Positions 38,656 to 63,523 of a stretch of DNA of 64,000 nucleotides are shown piece after piece. Below the pieces are notes generated by a model. It made no database searches. It had not been told where the DNA came from and saw only the letters and a list, made by a program, of their open reading frames with translations. This stretch comes from Cytobacillus oceanisediminis. Lineage in GTDB: Bacteria > Bacillota > Bacilli > Bacillales > Cytobacillaceae. The stretch's first letter is position 1; each line of letters starts with the position of its first letter. The stretch is from the NCBI RefSeq assembly GCF_022811925.1, contig NZ_CP065511.1:1853501-1917500 (forward strand), read 5' to 3'. The translations under genes were made by a program, and so were the position numbers.

Positions 38656-40065
38656 ATGGTAGTAGGAGATTTCCCAATCGAAACAGATACTATAGTCATT
38701 GGTGCGGGTCCTGGTGGATATGTTGCAGCGATTCGTGCAGCACAGCTTGGACAAAAAGTTACAATCGTAGAAAAAGCTAATATGGGCGGAGTTTGCTTAA
38801 ACGTTGGATGTATTCCTTCAAAAGCTTTAATCGCAGCAGGCCACCGCTACGAAAATGCAAAGCACTCGGATGTAATGGGTATTACAGCTGAAAACGTAAA
38901 AGTTGACTTCACAAAAGTACAAGAATTTAAATCCGGTGTAGTAAAGAAGCTTACTGGTGGAGTAGAAGGTCTTTTAAAGGGCAATAAAGTTGACATCGTA
39001 CGCGGTGAAGCTTACTTTGTTGATGCGAATACCCTTCGTGTAATGGATGATAATTCCGCACAAACTTATACGTTTAAAAATGCGATCATTGCTACAGGAT
39101 CTCGTCCAATTGAATTGCCAACGTTTAAATTCTCTAAACGTGTTCTTGATTCAACAGGTGCCCTTGCACTTCAAGAGATTCCAGAGAAAATCGTCGTTAT
39201 TGGCGGCGGTGTTATTGGAATTGAACTTGGAGGAGCTTATGCGAACTTTGGTTCCCAAGTAACGATTCTTGAAGGTGCAGATGATATCCTTATCGGCTTT
39301 GAGAAGCAGATGTCATCTCTTGTCAAACGGAACTTAAAGAAAAAAGGCGTTGAATTCATTACGAAGGCACTTGCTAAAGGTGTTGAAGAGAATGAAAATG
39401 GAGTTACCGTTAAGTTTGAAGAAAAAGGCGAAGAGAAATCTCTTGATGCAGATTATGTGTTTGTAATGGTTGGAAGACGTCCAAATACAGACGAACTGGG
39501 CTTAGAGCAAGCCGGCATTAAGATGACTGAACGCGGTGTTATTGAAATCGATAAACAATGCCGTACGAATGTAAGCAACATTTATGCTATTGGTGATATT
39601 GTTGCAGGTCCTCAATTGGCTCATAAAGCTTCTTACGAAGGTAAGATTGCTGCAGAAGCAATTGCAGGCCATAACGCAGAAATTGATTACTTAGCTATCC
39701 CAGCTGTGGTATTCTCAGAGCCTGAATTGGCTTCTGTAGGATATACCGAGCAGCAGGCTAAAGAAGAAGGAATCGAAGTAATGGCAGCGAAGTTCCCATT
39801 CGCAGCCAATGGCCGTGCCCTTGCACTTGATTCTACTGACGGTTTTTTAAAGCTAGTGACACGCAAAGAGGATGGCCTTGTAATCGGTGCGCAAATCGCT
39901 GGTGCAAGTGCATCTGATATGATTGCTGAGCTTGGATTGGCTATTGAAGCAGGCATGACTGCAGAAGATCTTGCCATGACTATTCATGCTCATCCAACAT
40001 TGGGCGAAATCACAATGGAAGCAGCAGAAGTTGCTATTGGAAGCCCAATTCATATAGTAAAATAA
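38656..40065 (+). CDS. pdhD: Dihydrolipoamide dehydrogenase (E3)
   Basis: This 469-residue FAD/NAD disulfide oxidoreductase reoxidises E2 dihydrolipoamide. The FAD motif [10 protein letters not shown] (16-25), redox disulfide GGVCLNVGC (Cys47, Cys52), NAD motif [10 protein letters not shown] and the C-terminal His-Glu motif HAHPTLGE (His446, Glu451) are intact. It starts 6 nt after pdhC; the ribosome site overlaps the end of pdhC. It may also serve the 2-oxoglutarate or branched-chain complexes. Confidence 0.97.
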
Positions 40066-44486: not shown

Positions 44487-44786
44487 ATGGATTATTTTGA
44501 GAAGCTCTATGATGAGCATGAAAACGTGAATGTCCGTTTTGTTGGCTTTACGACCGAGTCAACACGTTATGATTTTGGAATTGTTTATACAAACCTCTTC
44601 TTCTCTAAGCCTCTGGTTATTTGTATGCAGACCGGCCGCTCAACTCTCCTCGACCCTAAAGATCTCGAAGACATCGAATACTTGCAAAAGGCATTTAAGC
44701 TTGATTTATATGAACAGGCGGCTGATTTAAGCGAGTTTTTCATAGAAGCAATCCCTGGTGCGCGTTTCGAAGAACAATACGATTAA
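44487..44786 (+). CDS. DUF3055-like conserved protein
   Basis: This small acidic soluble protein of 99 residues contains VNVRFVGFTTESTRYDFGIVYT and an acidic helical C-terminus, resembling the DUF3055 family of Bacillus and Staphylococcus. ATG 44487 follows AAAAGGAGG. It lies just upstream of the SR1 locus and has its own terminator. The function is unknown. Confidence 0.72.
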   Translation: MDYFEKLYDEHENVNVRFVGFTTESTRYDFGIVYTNLFFSKPLVICMQTGRSTLLDPKDLEDIEYLQKAFKLDLYEQAADLSEFFIEAIPGARFEEQYD

Positions 44787-44790
44787 ACAA

Positions 44791-44824
44791 TAAAAAAACA
44801 GGCCGAATTGGTCTGTTTTTTTTA
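44791..44824 (+). terminator. Intrinsic terminator of the DUF3055-like gene
   Basis: AAAACAGGCC (44795-44804) pairs with GGTCTGTTTT (44810-44819, one G-U), followed by TTTT. Confidence 0.8.
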
Positions 44825-44825
44825 T

Positions 44826-44836
44826 TATGTCATACT
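44826..44836 (+). promoter_or_regulatory. Putative distal CcpN operator of sr1
   Basis: TATGTCATACT matches the CcpN consensus TRTGHYATAYW at every position. It lies about 108-118 nt upstream of the likely start of SR1 transcription. Confidence 0.65.
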
Positions 44837-44890
44837 ATTAATAAATGTCTATAAATGCTATTAACGTAAATACCAATAAAAAACAATAAT

Positions 44891-44901
44891 TATGTTATAC
44901 A
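44891..44901 (+). promoter_or_regulatory. Putative proximal CcpN operator of sr1
   Basis: TATGTTATACA also matches TRTGHYATAYW exactly and ends 7 nt before the -35 hexamer of the SR1 promoter. Confidence 0.7.
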
Positions 44902-44908
44902 ATTAGGC

Positions 44909-44937
44909 TTGATAATTTAATAATGTTATATTATTAT
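44909..44937 (+). promoter_or_regulatory. sr1 promoter
   Basis: TTGATA (44909-44914), a 17-nt spacer and TATTAT (44932-44937). Transcription should start near 44944. Confidence 0.75.
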
Positions 44938-44947
44938 TGATTTATAG

Positions 44948-44961
44948 ATAAAGCGCTTTCA
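44948..44961 (+). promoter_or_regulatory. cre site over the start of sr1 transcription
   Basis: ATAAAGCGCTTTCA (TGAAAGCGCTTTAT on the other strand) is a near-perfect CcpA operator, placed just after the predicted +1. CcpA also represses sr1 in B. subtilis. Confidence 0.7.
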
Positions 44962-44998
44962 ATTACCACTAAAACTCATTGAAAAGGAGAATGAAAAG

Positions 44999-45133
44999 AT
45001 GGGTACAATCGTATGCCAGGCTTGCAATTCAACTATTGATCACTTTGAGGATGAAAAAGTAACTGTATTATATTCAAAAAAATGCAATTGCTGTGACGGA
45101 GAAAAAACAGAGAATACTAAAAATAGCCGCTAA
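44999..45133 (+). CDS. sr1P: GapA-binding peptide SR1P
   Basis: This 44-residue peptide starts MGTIVCQACNSTIDHFEDEK and continues VTVLYSKKCNCC, which follows B. subtilis SR1P (MGTIVCQDCNEAIHYFEDEK). SR1P binds the glycolytic GAPDH GapA, helps stabilise gapA operon mRNA and promotes GapA-RNase J1 contact. The N-terminal half with CxxC is conserved; the C-terminal tail differs and is longer. ATG 44999 follows AAAAGGAGAATGAAAAG. Interestingly, rnjA, encoding RNase J1, is in this window. Confidence 0.88.
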   Translation: MGTIVCQACNSTIDHFEDEKVTVLYSKKCNCCDGEKTENTKNSR

Positions 45134-45138
45134 TAATA

Positions 45139-45175
45139 AAAAGAGCCTTTCCTAAAAATGGAAGGCTCTTTTGCA
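45139..45175. terminator. Terminator of sr1, shared with speA
   Basis: AAAAGAGCCTTTCC pairs with GGAAGGCTCTTTT over a TAAAAAT-type loop. T-runs exist on both sides and the genes converge. Confidence 0.85.
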
Positions 45176-45178
45176 TTT

Positions 45179-46648
45179 TTATCTGATGGCCCGGTGCTCT
45201 TCAATAACGCGAAGATATTTGAAGTCGTAATCTTCCGGTCCTTGTACTGGAAGTCCCGCTTCCATATTCGTTTTTATATAACGCAGGTTTTCCTTAGTAA
45301 TGATTTCTCCTGGAATAAATATAGGTATTCCGGGTGGATAAACCATGATGAATTCGGCGATAATTCTTCCTTCTGACTCGTCAAATGGAACCAGTTCTGT
45401 ATCAGCATAAAATGCGTCACGAGGTGTAAGCGATAAAACGGGAATATCAGGCAGCAGCACTTGAGTTTCAAGCTTTTCAGTATTCCCTTTGCGCTCATTA
45501 GCGAGTTCGGCAAGAGCGGAAACTAAAATATCAGCTTCTCTTTCAGTGTCGCCTGGGGTAACGATGCAAAGAATATTATATAAATCGGACATTTCTACTT
45601 CAATATTATGATGTTCCCGAAGCCAATTTTCCACATCGAAACCATTCATGCCAAGTTCTTTGACAGAAATAATCAATTTGGTCGGATCGTAGTCATGCGC
45701 CGCTTTTGTTTCCAGTATTTCTTCACCGACACAATATAGCCGGTCAATTTCATTGATGCGGCGGCGAATGGATTGGGCCAAATCAATAGTCTTTTGAATA
45801 AGTTCCTTTCCTTCAGTGGCAAGACGTTTTCTGGCAACATCCAAGGAGGCAAGCAATAAATAAGAAGTGGAAGTTGTTGTCAGCATGCTTAAAATGGATT
45901 GTACCCTTTTGGCCGAAACAAGATTCCCTTTCATATTTAAGATTGAACTTTGTGTCATGGACCCGCCCAGTTTGTGGACTGATGTTGCTGCTAAATCAGC
46001 GCCGGCTTGCATGGCTGATAATGGAAGCTCGTCATGGAAGTGAATATGCACACCATGGGCTTCATCCACAAGTACAGGCACATTGTATGAATGGGCTATT
46101 TCTACAATTTTTTTTAGATCGGCAGAAATACCGAAATAAGTAGGATTAATCACTAAAACCCCTTTGGCATCCGGATGAAGTTCCAGGGCTTTAGAGACTG
46201 ATTCAGTTGTTATACCGTGAGATATACCCAAGTTTTCATCAATTTCAGGGTGTATAAAAATAGGGGTTGCCCCTGAAAACACAATTGCAGACATGACGGA
46301 TTTATGAACATTCCTCGGAACAATGATTTTATCCCCGGGCCCGCAGACAGCCATAACCATGGTCATGATGGCTCCGCTCGTTCCTTGTACAGAGAAGAAT
46401 GTTTTATCTGCCCCAAAGGCCTCTGCTGCAAGATCCTGTGCTTCTTTTATAATGCCTTTGGGCTGATGAAGATCATCAAGGGGACCAATGTTGATCAGGT
46501 CAATAGCGAGTGCATTATCACCAATATATTCCCTGAATTCCGGATCAATCCCGGCACCTTTTTTGTGGCCAGGTATATGAAACTGTACCGGATCCTTTTT
46601 TGCGTGTGCAAGCAAACCGCTGAACAGCGGTGTTTTGTATTGAGACAA
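45179..46648 (-). CDS. speA: Arginine decarboxylase SpeA
   Basis: This 489-residue fold-type I PLP decarboxylase (Orn/Lys/Arg group) makes agmatine for polyamine synthesis. The PLP site is VDEAHGVHIHF (Asp195, Glu196, His198) with Lys226 in SVHKLGGSMTQSS; the C-terminal domain ends after PPGIPIFIPGE. It is the short Bacillus form lacking the N-terminal wing domain. TTG 46648 is the start, with AGAGGTGTGGG upstream. It lies next to sr1, as in B. subtilis. Confidence 0.93.
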   Translation of the reverse strand: MSQYKTPLFSGLLAHAKKDPVQFHIPGHKKGAGIDPEFREYIGDNALAIDLINIGPLDDLHQPKGIIKEAQDLAAEAFGADKTFFSVQGTSGAIMTMVMAVCGPGDKIIVPRNVHKSVMSAIVFSGATPIFIHPEIDENLGISHGITTESVSKALELHPDAKGVLVINPTYFGISADLKKIVEIAHSYNVPVLVDEAHGVHIHFHDELPLSAMQAGADLAATSVHKLGGSMTQSSILNMKGNLVSAKRVQSILSMLTTTSTSYLLLASLDVARKRLATEGKELIQKTIDLAQSIRRRINEIDRLYCVGEEILETKAAHDYDPTKLIISVKELGMNGFDVENWLREHHNIEVEMSDLYNILCIVTPGDTEREADILVSALAELANERKGNTEKLETQVLLPDIPVLSLTPRDAFYADTELVPFDESEGRIIAEFIMVYPPGIPIFIPGEIITKENLRYIKTNMEAGLPVQGPEDYDFKYLRVIEEHRAIR

Positions 46649-63321: not shown

Positions 63322-63480
63322 CAATCAGTGGGGGTTCTTATCCCCGCTGATTGTTAGTTGAGGCCCACAGGACAAAGAAGGCTTCGTCAGCATGATCTTC
63401 GTACGACCAAAAGCGACAGCTTTTGGGAGGAAGTGGGTCACAAAGACGTTGCCACAGGACGTGGCGTTCTTAGTCTTTGT
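63322..63480 (+). repeat. Three-hairpin element downstream of pycA
   Basis: The first hairpin, CAATCAGTGGGG/CCCCGCTGATTG (63322-63353), could end pycA but lacks a U-run. The second is CCAAAAGC-GACA-GCTTTTGG (63407-63426). The third is ACAAAGAC (63440-63447) with GTCTTTGT (63473-63480), enclosing GCCAC/GTGGC. The block has no coding potential. I recall similar blocks as repeated intergenic elements in related genomes; only one copy is here. Confidence 0.55.
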
Positions 63481-63523
63481 TCTTCTTTTCGGCCTTTACG
63501 GGCAGTAAGACTGCGATAAATAT

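Follow-up and report, generated by a model that had tools for sequence, protein, structure and literature searches.

An sr1 locus of a Cytobacillus-like bacterium with a third, distal CcpN-type site and a cre-like site at the transcript start

The sr1 locus and its peptide

The locus was confirmed as a genuine sr1 gene of a Cytobacillus-like bacterium, encoding the dual-function RNA SR1 and the peptide SR1P. It lies in a 64-kb stretch of DNA, the whole of which is called the window here, and the genome carrying the window has a size of 5.58 Mb. A sigma-A-type promoter (TTGATA-17-TATTAT, 44909–44937, plus strand) was detected with 10 of 12 consensus positions in a consensus scan, which puts the predicted +1 near 44944. 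The SR1 RNA was accordingly placed at 44944–45176 on the plus strand (approximately 230 nt, both ends being predicted), and the Rfam covariance model of SR1, RF02376, matched at 44938–45074 with 47.6 bits, just over the gathering threshold of 45. The SR1P coding sequence of 44 amino acids, with AAAAGGAG standing ahead of it, occupies 44999–45133 on the same strand, and its match to Pfam PF13790 (SR1P) was far above the cut-off of 26 bits (71.7 bits, E 5.7e-20); a search with the 44-aa peptide returned no NCBIfam match. An intrinsic terminator with a 13-pair stem, including 5 G-C pairs, and a T-rich tail follows at 45139–45172 (plus strand). The promoter, the 44-codon SR1P-like gene and the terminator had all been proposed in an earlier sequence-only reading, and each of them was recovered. 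In the same window, an Rfam Bacillaceae-1 RNA was also detected on the minus strand at 63413–63489 with 58.7 bits.

The gene speA (Orn/Lys/Arg decarboxylase, 45179–46648, minus strand) adjoins sr1 in convergent orientation, and a position beside speA is presumably also the place of sr1 in B. subtilis. Judged by the SpeA protein, the closest named records include Bacillus sp. NTK034, Cytobacillus firmus and C. oceanisediminis at 98–99% identity, with a few otherwise-named entries beside them, and the genus is called Cytobacillus here for this reason. A SAV0927-like gene at 44487–44786 is the upstream neighbour. The locus had been described as lying between pdhD and speA; speA is indeed adjacent, but pdhD (38656–40065) is separated from sr1 by several open reading frames (ORFs). 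The available text of PMC8152036 describes an identical genomic location for SR1/SR1P homologues. Because two family models exceeded their cut-offs, the gene stands beside speA, and ccpN, ccpA, ahrC and two GAPDH genes are present in the genome, the SR1/SR1P identity that had been read from the letters is well supported.

The gene itself is ordinary, since SR1P was matched in all 36 genus genomes, in 178 of 193 genomes of the family and in 325 of 397 sampled genomes of the order. In the family survey, none of the 13 genomes listed under the genus label g20 (G165–G177) had an SR1P match, which makes them candidates for a clade-wide loss. Multiple SR1P genes were also observed, with five matches in G157, four in G048 and seven in G503; two further copies of G157 (L099 and L100) each have their own perfect CcpN pair. 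For the comparisons below, 292 sr1-region loci were collected, nine of which had no SR1P ORF by pattern, and the remaining 283 gave 239 distinct upstream regions. Loci outside the genus comprised a default set and picks from capped, best-first lists (67 of 142 matching genomes for the other genera of the family, and 109 loci of other families); thus, these samples favour well-conserved SR1Ps.

Compared with the SR1/SR1P system of B. subtilis, the locus is alike in its promoter with CcpN sites, its peptide core, its terminator and its above-cut-off matches to the family models, whereas the peptide has 44 aa here and 39 aa in B. subtilis (PMC8152036, in the part available) and carries a different tail. 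The sequence-only reading had noted a kept core, which holds, and a Lys/Asn-rich tail with CNCC as new, which does not, as tails vary widely and CNCC occurs in 41 of 214 distinct SR1Ps. A new SR1P type was also considered and rejected, as the tails of the 214 vary in many ways, with exactly CxCC in 65 of them. At least two tail cysteines were present in all 214, mostly not by construction (one of the five points used to select the ORF was given for a tail pair), whereas the CxxC near the N-terminus in 214 of 214 arises by construction because the ORF pattern demands it. The ORF pattern missed L227, L230, L232 and L253, which all carry genus label g66 and have a Pfam SR1P match, and these four loci stand outside the counts; their peptides also escaped a search for the F/Y-D/E-x-EKV core and possibly form a divergent SR1P group.

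With the CxxC motif and two or more cysteines in the tail, SR1P would be suited to binding one metal ion, which suggests, as a lead only, a metal-binding mini-protein. The AlphaFold model of SR1P has three strands (pLDDT 78), and its fold matches, which include PerR with a Zn(Cys)4 site named in the entry title, were weak and non-significant. In the papers that contain both "SR1P" and "zinc", neither word stands in the title or abstract. By analogy with B. subtilis, the peptide would bind GapA and promote RNase J1 activity. The GapA candidate of the genome ends in AQKGL, and its lysine, matched by position, is taken here to be Lys 332 of B. subtilis GapA. This residue was reported to be decisive in B. 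subtilis in the available part of PMC8152036.

A search for pairing with the ahrC mRNA had been suggested as a check. The whole-length SR1–ahrC duplex had an energy of −60.5 kcal/mol, which was equalled in 54 of 100 shuffles and at 40 of 52 ORF starts of the window, and local 16-nt windows were matched at 7 of 60 ORF starts when the 3' tail was used and at 23 of 60 when the whole RNA was used. The duplex energies, computed with site accessibility left out of account, were thus not above background and speak neither for nor against pairing. In the accessible part of PMC8501984, pairing of SR1 with the kinA mRNA was reported to be limited to nine Bacillus species.

CcpN-type sites and the CcpN regulon

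Three sites resembling TRTGHYATAYW, which we take to be the CcpN consensus, are found on the plus strand at sr1. The distal site D (TATGTCATACT, 44826–44836) is an exact match at approximately −118 to −108 from the predicted +1, 65 bp upstream of site U. Site U (TATGTTATACA, 44891–44901) is also exact and stands upstream of the −35 box, and site S (AATGTTATATT, 44922–44932), with one mismatch at its first base, lies in the promoter spacer and overlaps the first base of the −10 box; the positions of U and S are both canonical. The two exact matches and the imperfect third had been seen in the sequence-only reading, and they were matched as described. Exact consensus matches amounted to five in the window, while shuffled sequences gave a mean of 1.6 and reached five in 2 of 100 cases. 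A longer motif, WRTGHYATAYWATT, which was derived after D, U and S had been seen, gave no match in the window beyond these three. Genome-wide, it gave 11 matches, three of them at sr1, and its reversed-pattern control gave 10; therefore, the other eight genomic matches look like background. The grouping of three CcpN-type sites within 107 bp at sr1, however, is not due to chance.

According to the available part of PMC8464778, the CcpN sites of B. subtilis sr1 are located directly upstream of the −35 box and in the spacer. U and S correspond to this classical pair and are 31 bp (three helical turns) apart, and D is additional. The arrangement of a CcpN-repressed promoter was thus found, with an exact site upstream of the −35 box and a site with one mismatch in the spacer. 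Moreover, a U/S pair 31–33 bp apart, with at most four mismatches per pair, was detected in 224 of the 239 distinct sr1 upstream regions; the 15 regions lacking a pair at 30–33 bp were left out, and distances and cre counts were determined on the 224 loci. A pattern search for two exact consensus sites 15–25 bp apart gave no hit in the genome and one in the control, but this pattern also misses the U/S pair of sr1 itself because S has one mismatch. In L245, L248, L249 and L275, two CcpN-type sites are 43 bp apart, about one helical turn beyond the usual 31–33 bp.

The sequence-only reading depended on the presence of a ccpN gene, and one was found next to a yqfL-type gene, with 349.9 bits against the cut-off of 260 for the equivalog model NF053704. 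The genome also encodes ccpA (535.9 bits against 442), ahrC, two GAPDH genes and pckA. The GAPDH gene beside pgk-like and CggR-like ORFs is probably gapA, and the other would then be gapB. Exact CcpN sites were located at −65 of the gapB-like gene and at −69 of pckA, and a scan of the retrieved gapA locus gave no exact site. A second exact site was absent within 300 bp on the coding strand of gapB and pckA, and pckA has a one-mismatch site 60 bp further up. Thus, the genome resembles B. subtilis and its CcpN regulon (gapB, pckA and sr1) in having ccpN next to a yqfL-type gene and exact sites upstream of the gapB-like gene and pckA, whereas the three-site array was found only at sr1 among these three.

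Conservation and spacing of the distal site D

The distal site had been called unusual from its spacing, and the comparison strengthened this view. Of the 36 genus genomes, 32 carry an exact copy of D upstream of U; the exceptions were L064, L066, L068 and L067, the last of which also has no U/S pair. When exact sites 20–110 bp upstream of U were counted, D was found at 38 of the 224 loci, namely at 31 of the 34 distinct genus loci, 6 of the 67 sampled from other genera of the family (67 of 142, best-first), 1 of the 37 additional named loci (L177, from Peribacillus glennii) and none of the 86 sampled from other families. Within 12–200 bp upstream of U, exact hits occurred in 40 of 224 loci on the same strand and in 5 of 224 on the opposite strand, and two of these five (L013 and L070) sit over D itself. 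Same-strand hits outside the distance clusters were L077 at 186 bp and L108 at 19 bp. A conservation profile showed that D was retained while the DNA between D and U diverged, and that D varies mainly at the free positions of the consensus. The high conservation at its fixed positions is partly by construction because the profile loci were chosen for an exact D; accordingly, the case for D rests on the counts with full denominators. The B. subtilis sr1 promoter, as described in the available part of PMC8464778, has two proximal sites, whereas a third CcpN-type site lies about 110 bp upstream of +1 here.

This last difference would also fit an ordinary SR1/SR1P locus in which D is unused and has persisted through the shared ancestry of close relatives or as part of the terminator tail of the upstream gene. 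Within the genus, many genomes are near relatives of one another, and D starts three bases past the terminator stem and T stretch of the SAV0927-like gene (44792–44822). However, the consensus has been kept although the distance to U varies from 30 to 74 bp by lineage and the intervening DNA has diverged, and D also occurs in P. glennii and three further genera of the family, so that an unused D is considered unlikely.

D might instead be the operator of another transcript, for example, one from a leftward promoter or from a second promoter upstream of sr1. A minus-strand promoter-like site over D (44851–44824) scored 10 of 12, equal to the score of the sr1 promoter in the same scan, and a plus-strand site between D and U (44861–44890) scored 9 of 12; promoter-like sites numbered 6 in 421 bp against 2.4 expected. 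In addition, among the 31 distinct D loci of the genus, 26 have a −10-like hexamer overlapping D on the minus strand, and for B. subtilis, the accessible part of PMC8501984 mentions a second, very weak promoter ahead of psr1. Nevertheless, a matching −35 box at 16–18 bp accompanies this hexamer in only 3 of the 31 loci, the minus-strand −10 letters coincide with the CcpN motif itself, and no ORF of at least 30 aa starts between D and the sr1 promoter. A leftward promoter over D is therefore a weaker alternative, and an operator of another transcript appears quite improbable.

The distances between D and U in the genus were 30 bp (three genomes), 42, 51, 53, 62, 63, 64, 65 and 66 bp; elsewhere, they were 71–74 bp in the three other family genera and 51 bp in P. 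glennii. Their clusters fall near 3, 4, 5, 6 and 7 turns of 10.5 bp. At this period, R was 0.78, with p values of 0.002, 0.019 and 0.037 for nine lineages, six lineages and five clusters, respectively, and when the period was scanned over 9–13 bp, the corresponding p values were 0.013, 0.073 and 0.131; the lineage grouping was made after the distances were known. The commonest spacing, 65–66 bp, which is also that of the window, is 2–3 bp off six turns. The helical phasing of D relative to U is thus suggestive and is not proof of a constraint.

CcpN has been described from a few two-site promoters, and an extra site that moved by nearly whole turns between lineages provides a natural test of CcpN cooperation along the DNA.

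The cre-like site and the proposed control of sr1

A cre site just past +1 had also been proposed, and a cre-like match was found at 44948–44961 (approximately +5 to +18), where TGAAAGCGCTTTAT on the minus strand agrees with the 14-position cre consensus at 13 of 14. This was the only match in the window with at most one mismatch, and 2.6 such matches were expected by chance; on its own, the site is therefore no better than chance and is credible only through its conservation. Across the 224 loci, 152 carry a match with no more than one mismatch immediately after the promoter; by group, as sampled, these are 25 of 34 genus loci, 53 of 67 from other genera of the family, 32 of 37 named loci and 42 of 86 from other families. 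With at most two mismatches, 68 of the 86 sampled loci of other families had it, and the site is weaker there than inside the family. As controls at the same threshold of one mismatch, the interior of the ORF gave 1 of 224 and the region upstream of U gave 0 of 223, while 60 permuted cre consensi gave a mean of 0.1 and at most 1 of 224. The pattern was also found in three loci with a B. subtilis-type SR1P (L204, L209 and L215).

If CcpA binds at this position, it would be expected to block transcription at +5 to +18. The position differs from that in B. subtilis, where the review PMC8464778, in its available part, places cre approximately 260 bp upstream, and the B. subtilis sr1 descriptions, as far as their available parts go, make no mention of a CcpA site on the initially transcribed sequence. 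This difference, together with the location of the element within the predicted transcript, would suit a conserved RNA or 5' UTR element rather than a CcpA site. However, the loci conform to the cre pattern but not to permuted versions of it, and an RNA element is regarded as rather unlikely. In view of the conserved cre-like site, the control of sr1 by CcpA deserves a fresh look, the B. subtilis group included. A third CcpN site or a downstream cre at sr1 may already be in print.

We favour, with a probability of roughly three in four, an sr1 gene with the canonical CcpN pair U and S, an extra site D that is probably cooperative and a cre just past +1 as a probable CcpA brake, with SR1 and SR1P acting as in B. 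subtilis. On a glycolytic carbon source, CcpN would repress sr1 at U and S, as described for B. subtilis. D, a few helical turns upstream and on roughly the same face of the DNA, would most likely add cooperative repression through side-by-side assembly or a small loop, and CcpA would probably be a second glucose brake at the cre directly downstream of +1. Once repression is lifted, the peptide would target GapA and RNase J1, and the RNA itself would serve as an antisense RNA, both as in B. subtilis. In this picture, the identity of the gene, the sites with their conservation and the presence of the regulators' genes are observations, and binding, cooperativity, a constraint by helical phase and the downstream functions are predictions. 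D may perhaps also compensate for imperfect U and S sites: an imperfect pair was found in 35 of 38 loci with D, the other three having a perfect one, and in 84 of 186 loci without D. D could thus make up for weaker U/S sites, but this association is confounded by shared descent.

A broader reading is more tentative and falls slightly short of an even chance. In Cytobacillus and some neighbours, three CcpN sites in helical phase would govern the sr1 promoter, the third of them still cooperating from three to seven turns upstream of the U/S pair, and a CcpA site on the initially transcribed sequence, itself widely conserved, would act alongside them. As a separate observation, CcpN control may have been lost at L067 and L068, where no credible CcpN pair is found at sr1, yet the promoter is followed by a cre-like site that has no more than one mismatch.
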